64,000 bases of DNA from Halobellus sp. LT62 (GTDB taxonomy: Archaea > Halobacteriota > Halobacteria > Halobacteriales > Haloferacaceae), in assembly GCF_037031285.1 (NCBI RefSeq), contig NZ_JAYEZO010000001.1, forward strand, positions 558,001 to 622,000, in the 5' to 3' direction. Made by a program: the position numbers and the translations under genes. Under the pieces are notes generated by a model that saw only the letters and a program-made list of their open reading frames with translations, did not search any database and was not told where the DNA came from. Shown in pieces: positions 23,987-31,017 of the stretch (position 1 is its first letter; every line of letters starts with the position of its first letter).

Positions 23987-24070
23987 TATAGTAGCGTTTG
24001 CAACTGATTGCTCATCAGATCGAACGACAGCGTTCGATCGAGTGAGTGAAGACTTGCAAACGCTACTATA
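23987..24070 (-). repeat. 84-bp palindromic interspersed repeat, copy A
   Basis: The ends are a perfect 17-bp inverted repeat, TATAGTAGCGTTTGCAA and its complement. Inside are two further hairpins: GATCGAACG/CGTTCGATC around a 4-base loop, and CTGAT/ATCAG around a 5-base loop. The copy lies between the convergent 3' ends of rnp4 and the next gene. Strand is assigned so that copies C and D are on the plus strand. Confidence 0.95.
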
Positions 24071-24086
24071 TCAGTGAGAAGCCGGC

Positions 24087-25175
24087 TCAGTCGTAGAAGC
24101 GTTCGGCGGGGACCCACTCGCGCTCGAACTCGTACTCCTCGACGAGCGACTCCCAGTTGTCGGGGAAGGTGATCTTCTCCGTGACCGGGCCGCCGATCGA
24201 CATCCCGACGATGGCGTTGAACCGACCGGGGCCGCCGACTGTCGCGAGTTTGACCGATTCCGGTTCGGAGTACTGCGGGACCTGCCGGCGGGGGACGTCG
24301 GTGTCTCCGTACGTCCCGGAACTCTCGAGCAGGGCTGGGTGTGAGTCGGTGCTCATATTCGAGTTCTCGACGAGGTACCCCTTGATGTCGTCCTTGCTCA
24401 GTCCCGCTTCGGCCAGTTCCTCGGCGTTGTAGGGGTTGATCGCGTGGGTGATCGTCGCGTTGAGGTTCTCGCCGGTCTTCGAGCGCATCGACTGTGGGGT
24501 GTTCCGGATCATCCCGTCGAGGATCTTCTCGGCGGTGTTCTCGCTGGGAAGCCACTGCGTCCAGCCGTTCGGTCCGGAAAGCGTGATCGTGCTCTCGCCC
24601 TCGTCGTACCCGTTCGTGACGTGGAACGGCTCCCACGGGCTGGCCTCTTCGTTCTCGCCCGCGAGCAGGTAGAACTTCGCGGGGTTTCCCATCACCCCCA
24701 TATCCTTCTCGCCGGGGTAGATCTTCGCCGTGTTGCGGTAGGCGATGCCGAGCGCGCGCGAGATGGTCTGGTTGGCGTGGTAGTTCGGGCCGAGCGCCCC
24801 CGTCCCGCTCTCGATGTCGAGTTTGTTCCGAACGGGCCCGTTGACTATCCACTGGTACGCCCACGAACCCGTGCTCACCGACGACTGAATCGAGTTCGAG
24901 TCGGGATCCGCGAACGCCCGAGCACCCGCTTCGAGCACCGGCATATACGGCGGGATACAGCCCGCCATCACGGCGTTGGCCGCGAGGTCTCCGACCGTGA
25001 TCGGGTTGTCCGCGTTGCCGATGCGGCCGAGGACGTGCTCGGGCGGTAGGTCGGTTCCGCGGAGCATCTCCTCGACTCGCTCCTCGGTGGGCGGGACGAC
25101 GGGAAGGCCGTCTGTCAATCCCTGCTCGTAGAGTGATCGGTACGTCTCGTCGAACGAATCGTGTGCGTCGGACAT
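24087..25175 (-). CDS. uncharacterised protein with TDGLPVVPPT motif (UGSC-associated type)
   Basis: The 362-residue soluble protein contains LTDGLPVVPPTEERVEEML near residue 20. I associate this motif with large, poorly characterised proteins found with UGSC-type (seleno)proteins, mostly in bacteria. No UGSC-type small gene is visible in the window. Other blocks are GNADNPITVGDLAANAVMAG, NYHANQTISRALGIAYRNTA and GGPGRFNAIVG. No catalytic motif can be assigned and no signal peptide is present. The gene sits alone between two direct copies of the 84-bp repeat, opposite in direction to rnp4 and yhbY. It may be an acquired cargo gene. Confidence 0.8.
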   Translation of the reverse strand: MSDAHDSFDETYRSLYEQGLTDGLPVVPPTEERVEEMLRGTDLPPEHVLGRIGNADNPITVGDLAANAVMAGCIPPYMPVLEAGARAFADPDSNSIQSSVSTGSWAYQWIVNGPVRNKLDIESGTGALGPNYHANQTISRALGIAYRNTAKIYPGEKDMGVMGNPAKFYLLAGENEEASPWEPFHVTNGYDEGESTITLSGPNGWTQWLPSENTAEKILDGMIRNTPQSMRSKTGENLNATITHAINPYNAEELAEAGLSKDDIKGYLVENSNMSTDSHPALLESSGTYGDTDVPRRQVPQYSEPESVKLATVGGPGRFNAIVGMSIGGPVTEKITFPDNWESLVEEYEFEREWVPAERFYD

Positions 25176-25536
25176 AGTGAACTGTCGGTGATCGCGTGCG
25201 GGTTGTCCGCTCGGTGTATCGACCTCCGTCGCGCGCGGTCGGCAGCAACCCGCGACAGCATCGCGGGCGACTCACCCGTCCCACGGGCGAAACCGGGTCC
25301 CGGTGATGTGATGGGTCCCACGAGCGGCATATCGTAGCATTTGCAACTGATCTGTCATCCGATGGCACGCGGTCGTGCGATCGAGTGGGTGAAGACTTGC
25401 AAATGCTACTATAATCAATAATTATATATCCGTTACATAAGTGTTGATCTCTCGTCAACGGACCGATCTGTCGGAGTCGCATCTCCGTTTCTTGGAGTAT
25501 TAACGTTCAAACCATCTGCCTTCCAAACGAAGTCGT
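25176..25536. other. intergenic region between two divergent genes, holding repeat copy B
   Basis: The stretch upstream of the minus-strand gene (25176-25329) shows no ORF that I trust. Copy B follows, then 25414-25437 is AT-rich (atcaataattatatatcc) and could hold a promoter for yhbY, whose ATG is at 25537. No RNA gene is seen. Confidence 0.6.
25330..25413 (-). repeat. 84-bp palindromic interspersed repeat, copy B
   Basis: Same 84-bp length and orientation as copy A. The arms read TATCGTAGCATTTGCAA and TTGCAAATGCTACTATA: 16 of 17 positions pair. Relative to A, the arm base change GCG to GCA is matched in the opposite arm, and the inner stem changes to GCACG/CGTGC, also paired. Confidence 0.93.
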
Positions 25537-25785
25537 ATGTCGGAGCACGAGCTGCGGAAAGCAGCCCACGATCTGGACGTCACCGTCTGGGTCGGGAAGG
25601 AGGGGATAGACCCGGTCGTCGAGGAGGCGTCCGACCAATTGAAAGAGCGCGACCTGATCAAAGTCAAGTTCCTTCGCGCCGCGCGCGGCGGCACGACCGT
25701 CGAAGAACTCGCCGACGAGCTCGCTGAGCGGACCAACGCGACGGTCATCGAAACGCGGGGTAACACGGGAGTCCTGCACCGATGA
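25537..25785 (+). CDS. YhbY/CRS1-CRM-domain RNA-binding protein
   Basis: The 82-residue protein is a stand-alone CRM domain, the YhbY type that binds pre-ribosomal RNA in bacteria. The domain hallmark GxxG loop appears as VWVGKEGIDPVVEEA, and the C-terminal strand pair is TVIETRGNTGVLHR. Its stop overlaps the mscS start by 4 bases (ATGA), so the pair is translationally coupled. Confidence 0.9.
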   Translation: MSEHELRKAAHDLDVTVWVGKEGIDPVVEEASDQLKERDLIKVKFLRAARGGTTVEELADELAERTNATVIETRGNTGVLHR

Positions 25786-26696
25786 GCGTAGGGGTGTCGC
25801 TGCAGGCCGGTATCGGACTGAACGACACGATCGCCCGCTTTCTGAACGGGTTCGGACTCCCGGACGCGGCCGCCAGCCTCCTCGGACAGGCGATCGCGTT
25901 CCTCATCGTGTTCGCGGTCGTGTTCGTTCTCGGTCGGAGCCTGCTGCTCCCGATCGCGACGCGGACGATGGACTCCCGCGGAATCGAGTCGCACGCGCAG
26001 AAGCCGCTCCGCCGACTCCTCGTCGTCGTCGTCGGCTTCGCCGGAGTCACGGCCGCGTTCGGCGCGGCGGGCTACCCCAACTTCCTACAGTCGCTGGCGA
26101 CGATCGCCGCCGCGGCCACGCTGGCGATCGGCTTCGCTATGCAGAACGTGTTACAGAACTTCGTCGCCGGGATCTTCATTTACACCGACAAGCCGTTCAA
26201 GATCGGCGATTGGATCCAATGGGACGGCAACTCCGGGATCGTCGAAGACATCAGTTTCCGCGTCACCCGCGTCCGGACGTTCGACAACGAACTGCTGACG
26301 GTTCCGAACTCGGCGCTGACCGACGGCGTCATCAAGAACCCCGTCGCGAAGGACAAACTCCGCCTGCAGGTGCCCTTCGGAATCGGCTACGACGACGACG
26401 TCGAGCGGGCGACCGAGATCATCGTCGAGGAGGCCGAGGCCCGCGAGGACATCCTCGATGACCCCGCGCCGTCGGTGCGGCTCACCGAACTGGGCGACTC
26501 CTCGGTGACGCTCACTTCCCGCATCTGGATCGACGATCCCAACCGCTCGGACTTCGTGAAGACCCGCGGCGAGTACGTCACGACCGTCAAGCGCCGCTTC
26601 GACGAGGAGGGCATCGACATCCCGTACCCGAACCGCACGCTCGGCGGCGAACTCACCGTCGCCGGTCTCGAAGAGGTCTCGCCCGCCGACGACTGA
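25782..26696 (+). CDS. mscS: MscS-family mechanosensitive ion channel
   Basis: The 304-residue protein has three membrane segments (about 35-60, 77-98 and 103-130), the last being the pore-lining TM3 (ATIAAAATLAIGFAMQNVLQNFVAGIF). The beta domain follows (KPFKIGDWIQWDGNSGIVEDISFRVTRVR) with the cytoplasmic vestibule to about residue 295. It releases osmolytes upon membrane tension, important for halophiles in hypo-osmotic shock. It is coupled to yhbY and converges on the HD gene with a repeat copy between. Confidence 0.93.
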   Translation: MSVGVSLQAGIGLNDTIARFLNGFGLPDAAASLLGQAIAFLIVFAVVFVLGRSLLLPIATRTMDSRGIESHAQKPLRRLLVVVVGFAGVTAAFGAAGYPNFLQSLATIAAAATLAIGFAMQNVLQNFVAGIFIYTDKPFKIGDWIQWDGNSGIVEDISFRVTRVRTFDNELLTVPNSALTDGVIKNPVAKDKLRLQVPFGIGYDDDVERATEIIVEEAEAREDILDDPAPSVRLTELGDSSVTLTSRIWIDDPNRSDFVKTRGEYVTTVKRRFDEEGIDIPYPNRTLGGELTVAGLEEVSPADD

Positions 26697-26753
26697 GACC
26701 GCTGGTTCTCCGTTCGATCGCCTACGTCGGCGGCCGCGCCGGCGAAGAGATCA

Positions 26754-26837
26754 TTTCCTAGCGTTCGCCCGTCGCCACTCACTCGATCGCACGACTGCGT
26801 GCCATCGGACGAACAATGGGTCGCAAACGCTACAGCT
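26754..26837 (+). repeat. 84-bp palindromic interspersed repeat, copy D (degenerate)
   Basis: This copy is aligned end to end with the others at 84 bp but has lost the TATA tips (TTTCC and AGCT). The core CACTCACTCGATCGCACGA is kept. The last bases contain the stop codon of the HD gene. It lies between the convergent ends of mscS and the HD gene. Confidence 0.85.
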
Positions 26838-27642
26838 CGATCCGCTCGACCAGTTGATCCTCGGACCTCGTGTTGACGGCGACGATGCGAACGTGCTCTT
26901 CGAGTCCCGAATCCTCTAATTTCTCCTTGAGGAGGTTGTCGACCTGATAGACGCCCGCGGCGTTCACCATCTCGATCTCGACGAGCACCGGCTTTCCGTC
27001 TCCCGTTCGGAGCGAGACGTTCTCGATCGCCTGACTGGAGAGCGTGTTGATCCCGCGGCCGCCCTTCTCGTAGGGGATGCGCGACCGCCCGCGTTCCATA
27101 TCGAGCGCGTCGGCGACGCGGATGATCCCCGCCTCGGTCGTCAGTGGATCCTCTTCGGTATGGTGACAGAGGATCGCGTGCAACACCTCGGCCTTCAGCC
27201 GCACGGTCGACTCGGTGTCGTAGAAGCCCAACTGCGGGATGAGCCGGTCGAGGAGGTCGGCCGCGAGCGGGATCGAGTAGTAGACGTGGCCGTCGCGGTG
27301 AACCACGTGCCCGATGTCGTGTAGCGTCGCGGCCAGCGCGATGATCACCGGTTCGTCGGCCTCTTCGAGGCCTTGGTCTGCCGCGCCGTTGCACGCGACG
27401 TCGCCACCTTTCAGGAGATCGTACAGGCAGAGCGCGCGGTTGCGGACGATCTCGATGTGTTTCGGCCCGTGATCGTTGTACCCCTTTCGCGCCACTGCGT
27501 TGACGTTCTGCGCCTCGAGATAAGTCGAGATTTCCGGATCCGTCGTGATCTCTTCGAGGACGGCGTTGAGTCGGTTATCGGGGAAGTTGTGCTCGGTGTC
27601 GGGGTCGTACTCGCGACCCCCGTTGCCGGTCGAGTCAGTCAT
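26830..27642 (-). CDS. HD-domain metal-dependent phosphohydrolase
   Basis: The 270-residue protein has the HD signature H58-x3-H62 region, H108-D109 and H112 in AATLHDIGHVVHRDGH, typical of metal-dependent phosphohydrolases. A C-terminal part from about 180 (GDGKPVLVEIEMVNAAGVYQVDNLL) is a small mixed domain. Substrates of such proteins are nucleotides or phosphorylated signals. None can be assigned. The start MTDSTGNGG was preferred to a longer ORF that overlaps the peroxiredoxin gene. The stop codon lies inside repeat copy D. Confidence 0.85.
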   Translation of the reverse strand: MTDSTGNGGREYDPDTEHNFPDNRLNAVLEEITTDPEISTYLEAQNVNAVARKGYNDHGPKHIEIVRNRALCLYDLLKGGDVACNGAADQGLEEADEPVIIALAATLHDIGHVVHRDGHVYYSIPLAADLLDRLIPQLGFYDTESTVRLKAEVLHAILCHHTEEDPLTTEAGIIRVADALDMERGRSRIPYEKGGRGINTLSSQAIENVSLRTGDGKPVLVEIEMVNAAGVYQVDNLLKEKLEDSGLEEHVRIVAVNTRSEDQLVERIEL

Positions 27643-27688
27643 CACTCCCGGTACTTCAGCGACGGCAAAGAATCTGCGGACGTGCGGT

Positions 27689-28177
27689 TCACACCGACGT
27701 AGCGCGCGCCGCTTCCGCTGCCGCCGCAACTTCGTCGTAGTCGGGTTCGACGCCGGGATCGTCGCTCACCCACGCGTACGTGACCTCGCCGTCGTCGTCG
27801 ACGACGAACACCGCGCGCTTCGCGAGGTTGTAGACGCCGAGGTCGGCGAAATCCATCGAGACGCCGTACGCGTCGATGATCTCGCGGTTGCTGTCGCTGA
27901 GGAGGCCGAAGTTGAGATCGTTCTGCTCGCGGAACTCGTTGAGCGTGAACGGCGTGTCGATGCTGACGCCGTAGACCTCCGCGCCGACGTCCTCGAAGTT
28001 CGCCAGCCGGTCGCGAAAGGTGCACATCTCGGTCGTGCACGTGCCCGTGAAGGCGGCGGGGAAGAACGCGAGCACGACCGGCTCGTCGCCGAGGGTCTCC
28101 GAGAGCGTGAACGATTCGACGTCGCCGTTCGCGAGCGGTGCGGTAAAATCAGGAGCATCGTCGCCGACTGAGACCAT
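27689..28177 (-). CDS. peroxiredoxin (AhpC/TSA, Bcp-like)
   Basis: The 162-residue thioredoxin-fold protein reduces peroxides. The peroxidatic site is FFPAAFTGTCTTEMCTFRD with C47 as the likely peroxidatic cysteine and C52 as a candidate resolving residue. Neighbouring residues T44 and R55 match the active site. The ORF continues upstream in frame, but MVSVGDDAPDF is the standard opening for the family. It is followed by the HD gene on the same strand, 46 bases away. Confidence 0.92.
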   Translation of the reverse strand: MVSVGDDAPDFTAPLANGDVESFTLSETLGDEPVVLAFFPAAFTGTCTTEMCTFRDRLANFEDVGAEVYGVSIDTPFTLNEFREQNDLNFGLLSDSNREIIDAYGVSMDFADLGVYNLAKRAVFVVDDDGEVTYAWVSDDPGVEPDYDEVAAAAEAARATSV

Positions 28178-28275
28178 ATTCTGTGTTCGGGAGACCTCGC
28201 GGTTGAATCTTCCTGTCTTTGCTTGCGGTTTCTGTGACGACTGGCGGGTTTTACCGGGCTGGCCGAGCAAAAAGC

Positions 28276-28283
28276 CTATAATT
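28276..28283 (+). promoter_or_regulatory. tatA: TATA box of tatA
   Basis: ctataatt lies 26-33 bases before the tatA ATG. The spacing fits a leaderless or near-leaderless transcript. Confidence 0.65.
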
Positions 28284-28308
28284 ACCACTGGGTTAGAATC
28301 TGGTAGCG

Positions 28309-28572
28309 ATGTACGGAACTATCACCCCATTGTTCCCGGGGCTGCCGGGTGGACCGGAAGTGCTCGTCGTCCTGCTCATACTGGTGCTGCTGTTCGGCGC
28401 TAACAAGATCCCGAAACTCGCCCGCTCGACGGGGCAAGCGATGGGCGAATTCCGACGCGGCCGCGAGGAGATCGAAGAGGAACTGAAGGGGATGGACGAC
28501 GACGACGAAGAGGACGAAGAAACGACGTCGACGGAATCGACCTCGACCGAGAAGTCGACCGAGACGAACTAA
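28309..28572 (+). CDS. tatA: Sec-independent translocase subunit TatA
   Basis: The 87-residue protein forms the pore part of the twin-arginine export system, which haloarchaea use heavily. A short hydrophobic helix (about 16-32, GPEVLVVLLILVLLFGANK) is followed by the hinge FGANKIPKLARSTGQAMGEFRRG and an amphipathic helix. The acidic tail with TSTEST-type repeats is usual in halophiles. TatC is not in this window. A leaderless TATA box lies upstream. Confidence 0.93.
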   Translation: MYGTITPLFPGLPGGPEVLVVLLILVLLFGANKIPKLARSTGQAMGEFRRGREEIEEELKGMDDDDEEDEETTSTESTSTEKSTETN

Positions 28573-28641
28573 CGCGCTTTCCACCCGGATCTTTTCGCGA
28601 AACCGAGTCTGTTTAAGCCACCGCTACGCTACTCGTCGGTG

Positions 28642-28715
28642 GGACGTGTGGCCTAGTGGACCAGGGCGAGGGGTTCCTAACCCCTAGATCGCGGGTTCGA
28701 ATCCCGTCACGTCCG
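28642..28715 (+). tRNA. tRNA-Arg (CCT anticodon)
   Basis: A full cloverleaf can be drawn. The acceptor stem is GGACGTG paired with CACGTCC, and the discriminator is G. The D stem GCCT pairs with GGGC. The anticodon stem AGGGG/CCCCT encloses the loop TTCCTAA, giving anticodon CCT, which reads AGG arginine codons. The T arm is GCGGG-TTCGAAT-CCCGT. There is no intron. CCA is not encoded. Confidence 0.95.
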
Positions 28716-28746
28716 TTTTCCGCCGAGCGATAGCGAGGCGTGAAAA
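28716..28746 (+). other. hairpin just after the tRNA-Arg
   Basis: TTTTCCGCC pairs with GGCG-GAAAA (one T bulge) around a short loop. It starts right after the discriminator base and could serve as the end or processing signal of the tRNA transcript. Confidence 0.5.
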
Positions 28747-28821
28747 CGACACTGCGGGATTCGAATCAGGGAGGTCGCGTGGATCACCCGACCTTTCGTC
28801 GTCGCCGGCTCTCCGACCCGA

Positions 28822-29133
28822 TTACCCGATATTCTGGGTGAGGAGCGTCTCTCTCGTCACCTGTCCGTTGTTGATTCGCTTTTCGACGACGCGAAGTTTC
28901 ATCTTGACCGTGGATTCGTCGAGGTCGAGGAGATCGGCGATGGTGTCTAACGAGCGCTCGGTGAGCTGGCGGACGGCTTTGACTTCAGCTTCCTCTTCTA
29001 CGAGGGGAGTGTGGTCCGCCAGCTCGGTTGCGCGGCAGCGATTGCACACTGCTTGGTCCCAGTGATCGAACTGCCCGACGATACGTCCGTTCTCGACGTC
29101 TTCGCTCTCCCCGCAACGACTGCATTCCGTCAT
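28822..29133 (-). CDS. zinc-ribbon/helix-turn-helix small protein
   Basis: The 103-residue protein has an N-terminal zinc motif with C4-x2-C7 and C30-x2-C33 (TECSRCGES; QAVCNRCRAT). The C-terminal half has a helix-turn-helix-like stretch (SLDTIADLLDLDESTVKMKLRVVEKRI). The combination suggests a small DNA-binding regulator. No target is known. It lies alone, convergent to the tRNA. Confidence 0.75.
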   Translation of the reverse strand: MTECSRCGESEDVENGRIVGQFDHWDQAVCNRCRATELADHTPLVEEEAEVKAVRQLTERSLDTIADLLDLDESTVKMKLRVVEKRINNGQVTRETLLTQNIG

Positions 29134-29252
29134 TGATGTATCACTGTCATACCGTCTGTTAATTGTTGGTGCCTATCGTCTATCACAGGCGAAACGGACC
29201 GAGGAATCGACCCACCTCCCGAGAGACGCACGCGATCAGTCTGGAAATGCCC

Positions 29253-30086
29253 CTATAGGTCCACGCGGTCGCCGATCTCGGCGATTTCCAGCGACTGCGG
29301 GTACTCGTAACTTCGCGCGTGGTGGTGCAGCACCTTCGGATCGGCGGTCATTCCCTTCCACATATCCCAGTGGCTCGGGAGGAAGCGGTCCAGTTGGAGA
29401 TCCGACGCCGACTTGACCGCCTCGTTCTCCGTGGAGTACCAGCGGGTGCGAACCGGCTCTCGGGTCTGCTTGTCCGGGATGTTGCCGATCGCGCCGAAGG
29501 CGAGCACGCCGAGGTCGATGTCGTAGCGCTCACCCAGTTCGTCGAAGTCGTCGTGCGGTTTCGTGTCGCCGCCGTGGAAGAACGTCCCCGAGTCGTGCTC
29601 GAAGACGTACGAGACCGGATGCGTCGAGTCGGGATCGTGGGAGAATTCGACGTGGACGGTGAACTCGCCGACGTCGAGGGTGTCGCCCTCCGCGATTTCC
29701 GTGAACTGTGACTCCGAGAGGTCGTACTCGTCGAGCCACGCCTCGTCGTCGACGGCGACCGACAGCGAGTCGTCGGGGGCGTAGAAATCCGCGCCCGTGT
29801 TCTCTAAGATTGGTGCCTGACTCGGCCCGTGGGTGTGGTCCGTGTGCTCGTGGGTGGCGAAGACGGCGTCCATCTCCGCGACGTCCTCGGGATCGAAGGG
29901 AACGGGGATCATCCGGACCGTCCGCGGCGGATCGCCGGTACCGAGATACGGGTCGATCGCGACGGTCGTACCCTCGCTGCCTTTCAGAATGAAACCGTTG
30001 CAGCCGAGGTACCAGACGGCGACGGTGTCGGGATCCGCTGCTTCGACGGCGCGCGGGAGCCAGTCTCCCCAGTCGCTTCGAGTCAT
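29253..30086 (-). CDS. UlaG-like metallo-beta-lactamase fold hydrolase
   Basis: The 277-residue protein has the HxHxDH motif in ATHEHTDHTHG (about residue 78-88). Other conserved blocks include VWYLGCNGFILKG, FHGGDTKPHDDF and PSHWDMWKGM near the end, which match the UlaG/L-ascorbate 6-phosphate lactonase-type branch. The substrate is unknown. The start MTRSDWGDWLP was chosen over an upstream ATG 26 codons back. Confidence 0.85.
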   Translation of the reverse strand: MTRSDWGDWLPRAVEAADPDTVAVWYLGCNGFILKGSEGTTVAIDPYLGTGDPPRTVRMIPVPFDPEDVAEMDAVFATHEHTDHTHGPSQAPILENTGADFYAPDDSLSVAVDDEAWLDEYDLSESQFTEIAEGDTLDVGEFTVHVEFSHDPDSTHPVSYVFEHDSGTFFHGGDTKPHDDFDELGERYDIDLGVLAFGAIGNIPDKQTREPVRTRWYSTENEAVKSASDLQLDRFLPSHWDMWKGMTADPKVLHHHARSYEYPQSLEIAEIGDRVDL

Positions 30087-30576
30087 ACGTGTCGCTGTGG
30101 CAGGCGTCGGGCTAAGTGTTCCGGACCGGGACGCGCGCGATCGCCGGCGATGGATCGCCACCAACGCCCCGATTCGGCCACTCCCGTAACGTGGATGTAG
30201 TCCGTGTCACGACAATACGTAACCGAATTGGCTGTCAAGTCAGATCAGAGTGTATATGTGTCCACTATTCGTTGAAGGTGCTCTAAGTACTTCAAACAAT
30301 ATCGACAGAAGACACTTATTACATACCGCCGACATTCCTGCTATGACAGCTACTCACAGGGAGACGGCACACTTTTCGCAGATGGACACGACGATGCGGC
30401 GACTGGGGTCGTGGACACCGCCTCGGCCGGACGAAGGTGGCTAATCGTCGCAGTTCCGTTCGATCGTCGTCGATCGATCAAACGGTTACTCCGCGCCTAT
30501 AGGAGCGTTTGCAAGTATTCATTCACGCGATCGCACGCTGTCGTGCGATCTGATGAACAATCAGTCGCAACCGCTG
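30087..30576. other. long intergenic region with AT-rich segment and repeat copy C
   Basis: About 490 bases without a firm gene. It is AT-richer than its surroundings between 30190 and 30345. A possible 33-codon ORF (30343-30444) is listed separately. At the right end repeat copy C begins. I see no RNA gene or transposase fragment. Confidence 0.5.
30343..30444 (+). CDS. possible leaderless 33-aa ORF (weak)
   Basis: An ATG lies about 20-27 bases after a TATA-like ttattac (near 30316-30322), giving a 33-residue product that ends in PPRPDEGG. There is no recognised domain. It could be a small protein, the remnant of a lost gene or chance. Confidence 0.2.
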   Translation: MTATHRETAHFSQMDTTMRRLGSWTPPRPDEGG

Positions 30577-30581
30577 CTATA
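30498..30581 (+). repeat. 84-bp palindromic interspersed repeat, copy C
   Basis: Reading on the plus strand this copy matches the reverse complement of copy A at most positions and keeps the exact 84-bp length. The inner stem is ATCGCACG/CGTGCGAT, and the second hairpin CTGAT-gaaca-ATCAG is intact. The outer arms have lost several pairs (GGAGCGTTTGCAA against TCGCAACCGCTGC). The last bases hold the stop codon of the DUF302 gene. Confidence 0.93.
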
Positions 30582-31017
30582 GGTTGCCGAACGCCTCGTC
30601 GACGAGTTCGCCGGTATCCGCGATGATGTCTGCCATCTCCTCGCTGTCGGGTGCCATCCCGACGAGTCGCGCGATGCGCATAATGCTCACGTGATAGACC
30701 GTCTGGACGCCCGGCTCCTCCTGCCAGATCACGACGTTGCACGGGAACAGCCCGCCCATCTTCTTGTCGCTCGCGTCGAGGGAGCGGTCCGCCATCGTCG
30801 GGTTACACGCGCCGAGTACGTAGTACGGGTCGCGGTCGGCGTCGACCTTCTCGTTGAGCATCTCCGAGGGGGAGAACTCCGTCGCGACGCCGAAGCCCGC
30901 GTCGGTGAACGCCTCGCGCACGTGTTCGATCGCGTCCTCGTGCTCCATTCGGAGGGTCGCCCGTTCTTGCCCGATGTCGCCCGCGGCGATCGCGCTCGGA
31001 TCGATAGGTAGCGTCAT
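30577..31017 (-). CDS. DUF302-domain protein
   Basis: The 146-residue protein fits the DUF302 family: the block EHVREAFTDAGFGVATEFSPSEMLNEKVD with the later YYVLGACNP and FPCNVVIWQEE are typical. The biochemical role of DUF302 is not established; some members bind heme or metal. The stop codon is in repeat copy C. The start MTLPIDPSAIAAG was chosen over an upstream in-frame ATG because it gives the standard family length. Confidence 0.88.
   Translation of the reverse strand: MTLPIDPSAIAAGDIGQERATLRMEHEDAIEHVREAFTDAGFGVATEFSPSEMLNEKVDADRDPYYVLGACNPTMADRSLDASDKKMGGLFPCNVVIWQEEPGVQTVYHVSIMRIARLVGMAPDSEEMADIIADTGELVDEAFGNL

Follow-up and report, generated by a model that had tools for sequence, protein, structure and literature searches.

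A 64,000-nucleotide stretch of the Halobellus sp. LT62 genome (contig NZ_JAYEZO010000001.1, positions 558,001 to 622,000; hereafter, the window) carries four copies of an 84-nt repeat that are best explained, with a probability of about 0.87, as a mobile 80-bp foldback element that is non-autonomous and transposase-free, resembles a miniature transposable element (MITE) and is close to the Small Mobile Repeats (SMRs) of haloarchaea. Insertion is precise at TA, preferably within the palindrome RCTAGY, and leaves TA on both sides for a net gain of 82 bp; copies lie mostly between genes or at gene ends, and the two arms change together. The four copies were described in an earlier note on this DNA and were recovered as described, 84 nt each and in register, with copies A (23987..24070) and B (25330..25413) on the plus strand and copies C (30498..30581) and D (26754..26837) on the minus strand. 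The perfect 17-bp terminal inverted repeat (TIR) of the intact copy A and the match of copy C to reversed A (88% identity in reverse complement) also held.

Mobility, which the note had inferred, is supported by empty sites in related genomes and by the insertion of copy C into a gene end. Among the Halomicrobium mukohataei plasmid pHmuk01, the plasmid pLC1Hm-01 and 800-kb blocks of three Halomicrobium genomes (G118, G185 and G075), we identified 16 distinct presence/absence sites. In the empty state, exactly 2 bp lie between the flanks at 14 of these 16 sites, a clean scar, and one end of the filled copy is frayed at the remaining two; thus, the net insertion is 82 bp, i.e. the 80-bp element plus a duplicated TA. 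The empty-site dinucleotide is TA at 11 of the 16 sites and CA/TG at five. At three sites (positions 200881 and 635448 of the G118 block and 428757 of the G075 block), the element is present in one genome whereas both others have a single TA, indicating that the element was gained, not lost. In the window, joining the flanks of copy C by one TA gives CCTAGG near the 3' end of a DUF302 gene (30577-31017, minus strand), and the reconstructed protein ends in ...EAFGNLGAE*; the relatives H. captivus and H. clavatus have ...EAFGNLDAE* and ...EAFGNLDAQ*, respectively, whereas with copy C present the protein ends in ...EAFGNL* at a TAG within the TIR, which is the present stop codon. Judged from this reconstruction, copy C is an insertion into the gene end, and removal of 82 bp would give back the ancestral DUF302 terminus.

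The borders of the element are sharp. In a comparison of 150 distinct copies, conservation is 89% at positions 1 and 84 and drops to near background immediately outside, except for a C before (62%) and a G after (62%), followed outwards by R and Y, that is, a palindromic RC-TA-GY target preference. Each window copy spans 84 bp, the length given in the earlier note, but the outermost TA on each side is the target duplication, such that the element proper is 80 bp long (23989-24068 in copy A). A CTAG context surrounds 48 (44%) of the 109 distinct copies that have an intact TA on either side, whereas CTAG accounts for only 1.1-2.4% of TA sites in the window and the Halomicrobium DNA, being depleted there to 0.05-0.14 of expectation; the preferred target is thus a tetramer that these genomes strongly avoid. 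A pair of copies in direct orientation in genome G023 (C4:142706-142869) shares 4 bases, which gives a period of 80 bp; insertion of one copy at its neighbour's terminal TA would produce this arrangement.

The element has the form TAGTAG...CTACTA, with TIRs of about 15 bp, a central hairpin and no coding capacity. In copy A, the left TIR TATAGTAGCGTTTGCAA (23987..24003) is the reverse complement of the right TIR TTGCAAACGCTACTATA (24054..24070), and the central hairpin (24018..24039) consists of a 9-bp stem and a 4-nt loop, GATCGAACG-ACAG-CGTTCGATC; in copy B, 16 of the 17 TIR positions are paired, with a compensated change GTAGCATTTGCAA/TTGCAAATGCTAC. An alignment of 53 sequences from many genera, with 84 gap-free columns (the copies had been selected as ungapped), showed nearly invariant terminal sequences TATAGTAG...CTACTATA and, beyond these ends, an outer stem that varies with compensation: U-A, A-U, G-C and C-G at positions 11/74, C-G and A-U at 15/70, U-A and C-G at 12/73, and A-U and C-G at 4/81. 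Double changes in the two arms numbered 67 cells, compared to 21.2 +/- 3.8 in shuffles (reached in 0/500), a result that kinship among the sequences can inflate; compensated changes are also visible within clades of the alignment (GTAGCATTT/AAATGCTAC, TATC/GATA), and the pairing is lost when the partner is moved by 1-3 columns. The common hairpin core is CGCACG-NNNN-CGTGCG, with the frame shifted by one in the Halomicrobium/Natrinema group. As single strands, intact copies fold into one long hairpin (z of −4.2 to −11.3; −8.7 for copy A), and the degraded copy D reaches only −2.3.

Co-varying arms and a stable fold, together with the location of copies A and D between convergent genes, would also suit a functional structured RNA or a transcription terminator maintained by selection and not mobile. 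We consider this explanation hardly credible in view of the recent gains at unrelated sites, the empty sites in close relatives, the occurrence in both orientations and the insertion into a coding 3' end; furthermore, no repeat in the window matched an Rfam family above the gathering score, the only match being a tRNA. The perfect foldback, the strong single-strand fold, the intergenic bias and the multiple copies are likewise reminiscent of REP/BIME, ERIC and similar bacterial sequences, which are intergenic imperfect palindromes present in many copies. Movement of a REP/BIME-like element in single-stranded form by RAYT or another Y1/HUH transposase that reads the hairpin appears, nevertheless, quite improbable: symmetric ends and a duplicated TA are unexpected of IS200/IS605-type insertion, which produces no target duplication, the copies are single and not in clustered arrays, and the target is palindromic. 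Precise TA duplication and the CTAG target similarly set the family apart from REP/BIME and ERIC. Thus, of the two classes proposed in the earlier note, MITE or REP-like, only the former, with its TIR, target duplication and insertion, is supported.

The family extends far beyond the four sites in the window, where the 13-mer GTAGCGTTTGCAA occurs six times with up to two mismatches, compared to 0.29 occurrences expected (six were reached in 0/100 shuffles). Across the 3.2-Mb window genome, 40 scored places were obtained among 81 candidates (best E-values 5e-38 to 2e-17), and further copies were found on reading the loci, for a total of at least 40; the shuffling result and this copy number together exclude chance. 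Within the genus, the family is present in 12 of the 17 genomes, with dozens of copies in some, and in a sample of Halobacteriales matches were detected in 109 of the 392 genomes and 28 of the 95 genera, mostly spanning all 84 positions, including at identities of 75-79%. A sample of 295 from across the phylum gave 21 matches, every one of them within Halobacteriales. Taxa with matches include Halobellus, Halogeometricum pallidum, Halobium, Halogranum, Haloplanus, Haloterrigena, Natrinema, Natrialba, Natronococcus and Natronorubrum. At the sensitivity used, there was no match in Haloquadratum J07HQW1/J07HQW2, two Haloferax species or Halorubrum sp. JWXQ-INN 858; plasmids of Haloferax mediterranei and of another Halorubrum do carry the family, as do many other plasmids, mostly in stretches without an annotated gene. 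The flanks of dispersed copies are unrelated in the genome, the genus and the order. No copy was found in the phage records and the E. coli genome searched, and ten exact 17-mer matches in viral contigs are chance, none extending into the element.

Several observations weigh against a mobile element that inserts at TA. TA would be predicted at the five empty sites that read CA/TG, and the filled genome has TA on both sides in all five; at an extra plasmid site, pHmuk01 115141, a GA scar gives the better alignment. The searches of the window genome, the Halomicrobium DNA and the IS630 loci revealed no transposase or longer element with matching ends, and the copy-rich Halobellus genomes G000 (the window genome) and G008 yielded no DDE_3 match, so that no IS630 enzyme is on hand there. 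For the CA/TG sites, the simplest idea is that the avoided CTAG/TA mutated afterwards, two of the five being CCAG; such sites are more frequent than flank divergence alone suggests. They could also be mismatched cores corrected to TA, had the element moved by site-specific recombination, whereby a serine or tyrosine recombinase crosses over a circular form at a TA core without true target duplication, and a palindromic target with a central TA would fit such a reaction. This scenario seems improbable, given that the filled copies at all five sites have TA at both ends, with no mixture, and that the look-alike families 2 and 3 (see below) have 3-bp duplications, not to be expected of a 2-bp crossover.

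Under the preferred reading, a transposase-free element moved in trans, an enzyme encoded elsewhere would bind both ends, excise the element and join it to 2-bp staggered cuts at TA. The TA duplication suggests that the reaction would be of the DDE type and share its target signature with IS630/Tc1-mariner elements; the arms might keep co-varying because one protein must read both ends or because the foldback itself is recognized. In a narrower form of this reading, the repeat would be a true IS630/Tc1-mariner MITE, moved by a haloarchaeal IS630 transposase that reads the terminal few bases. The 2-bp TA duplication and the CTAG preference are the IS630 signature, and haloarchaea commonly have IS630 transposases; this form is possible but tentative, owing to the distribution of the enzymes and the ends of their elements. 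The repeat-carrying genomes G005 and G012, like G000 and G008, have no DDE_3 match, whereas three genomes without repeats have DDE_3, and across the genus its presence does not track the repeats. No convincing TAGTAG-type termini flank a transposase on both sides at the 21 DDE_3 loci found in the genus, which include fragments, or at 16 plasmid loci. Haloarchaeal IS630 elements were accordingly rejected as the parent, their ends being unrelated in the sampled loci.

Nor did other searches reveal a parent element. No longer element with the 13-mer of the TIR was found across the whole window genome, a search of 2.85 Mb of Halomicrobium DNA for unpaired TATAGTA ends gave no autonomous partner, and none of the strain-specific Halomicrobium insertions of 350-3500 bp is a longer element with the ends of the repeat. 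A search for TIRs paired at distances of 400-3000 bp and bordered by TA or TSA duplications gave nothing but short copies on either side of ordinary genes, besides one 1,128-bp segment that has the terminal repeats of family 2 and a TCA duplication (G118 C2:2289084-2290211, in L312). This segment encodes a helix-turn-helix-like open reading frame and a second one, with no recognizable transposase, and its right border falls at a strain difference to G075. Strain-specific Halomicrobium insertions of about 370-470 bp (e.g. positions 287840-288272 of the G118 block, and 314800-315170 and 610470-610936 of the G185 block), with ends like GGTAGTGTTCAGATAAG and overlaps of 8-11 bp, apparently represent another MITE family. 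Thus, no full-length transposon sharing the 17-bp ends was found in the DNA searched, in agreement with the remark in the earlier note that no transposase is visible.

The same Halomicrobium DNA contains 114 copies of two other foldback groups (loci L222-L362, plasmids L212-L221), namely, TACGG...CCGTA of 79-80 bp and TACTGCCGGC...GCCGGCAGTA of 77-78 bp, with ends unrelated in sequence to those of the TA-duplicating family. Identical 3-bp repeats, almost always TCA or TGA (TSA) and in two cases TTA, flank 99 of the 114 copies, and in 36 empty-site comparisons for the TSA groups the gap is 3 bp, with one TSA where it was read; the preferred target of these groups is CTSAG. The TACGG family shares the central CGCACG hairpin with the TA-duplicating family, and one TACGG copy lies inside a copy of the latter (family 1), flanked by a TCA duplication. 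A further copy of the TSA-type groups was observed in Halobellus salinus (L144:2672-2749); in the window genome, matches to family 3 are no more numerous than those of a reversed-pattern control. Similar size and layout across families with different ends and duplication lengths are also characteristic of the SMRs of Haloquadratum. These observations suggest that foldback elements of about 77-80 bp form a broader class. That all of it, TA- and TSA-duplicating alike, shares a mobilizer that recognizes the length or shape of the foldback and not a specific terminal sequence is a rather unlikely extension.

The window shares its gene order over many kilobases with several Halobellus species. Copy A lies between converging genes, copy B (82% identical to A) in a divergent gap upstream of both flanking genes, and copies D and C at gene 3' ends. 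Between A and B is a gene encoding 362 amino acids (24087..25175, minus strand) with no Pfam match. Copy D, which is 76-79% identical to A and B in reverse complement over 75 nt, is degraded at both ends, has lost the TATA ends and overlaps the stop codon of an HD-domain gene (26830-27642, minus strand), whose product is 92% identical to the H. captivus counterpart. The other Halobellus genomes compared have no repeat at the D gene junction or at the C site and lack the entire A-gene-B stretch; exact empty sites for A, B and D could not be placed in them, the intergenic DNA being too diverged. A and B were considered as the two ends of a composite element, their outer ends being a matching, TA-flanked pair at a distance of 1,423 bp; because two separate insertions would also give this pattern, the composite was not adopted. 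The HD-domain gene touched by copy D has a copy at its stop codon in Natronosalvus hydrolyticus as well, a Natrialba-type variant (L206:10796-10872) that apparently inserted independently of copy D.

If the mobile-element reading is true, the repeat is a very widespread non-autonomous element of haloarchaea that provides stop codons and thereby edits gene ends, and its exact empty sites are available for work on the mechanism. With insertion sites, target rule and borders now defined, how Small Mobile Repeats move becomes directly testable.

Among known systems, the family resembles IS630/Tc1-mariner elements and their MITEs (IS630, ISY100; PMC2170065) in the TA target duplication and in the CTAG preference, the IS630 signature as given where PMC2170065 cites Tenzen and Ohtsubo 1991, but differs in its constant 80-bp length across the order and in that no related transposase-bearing element with matching ends was found, including among the sampled haloarchaeal IS630 elements. 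In MITE terms (PMC3119063), the repeat is short (84 nt), has a 17-bp TIR and no transposase gene, and shows target duplications (TA at 11 of the 16 sites, CA/TG at the rest), but no TIR of a known transposon related to its own was found in the window genome, the Halomicrobium blocks, the IS630 loci or the strain-specific insertions. Haloarchaeal PATEs and IS200/IS605-type elements (PMC3119063) are similarly short, palindrome-bearing and transposase-free, but PATEs have neither terminal inverted repeats nor target duplication. The SMRs of Haloquadratum walsbyi (SMR-A/SMR-B) are about 80-110 bp long (HqIRS41, 80 bp), comprise several families alike in build without sequence similarity, and are of unexplained mobilization; they are described as lacking target duplication and as targeting other mobile elements (PMC3119063). 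The present family, compared by this description and not by sequence, shares their size, mobility, prominent inverted terminal repeats, lack of coding capacity, tens of copies per genome and lack of a known related transposon. In contrast to SMRs, it duplicates TA (unless TA is counted within the TIR), prefers CTAG, is mostly intergenic and order-wide, and was not found in Haloquadratum J07HQW1/J07HQW2. The family is thus set apart from both classes, from MITEs because no parent transposon is known and from SMRs because a target duplication is present. No description of it was found in the searchable open literature, and the repeats constitute a real, apparently undescribed, order-wide family of non-autonomous mobile elements, nearest to the Small Mobile Repeats.

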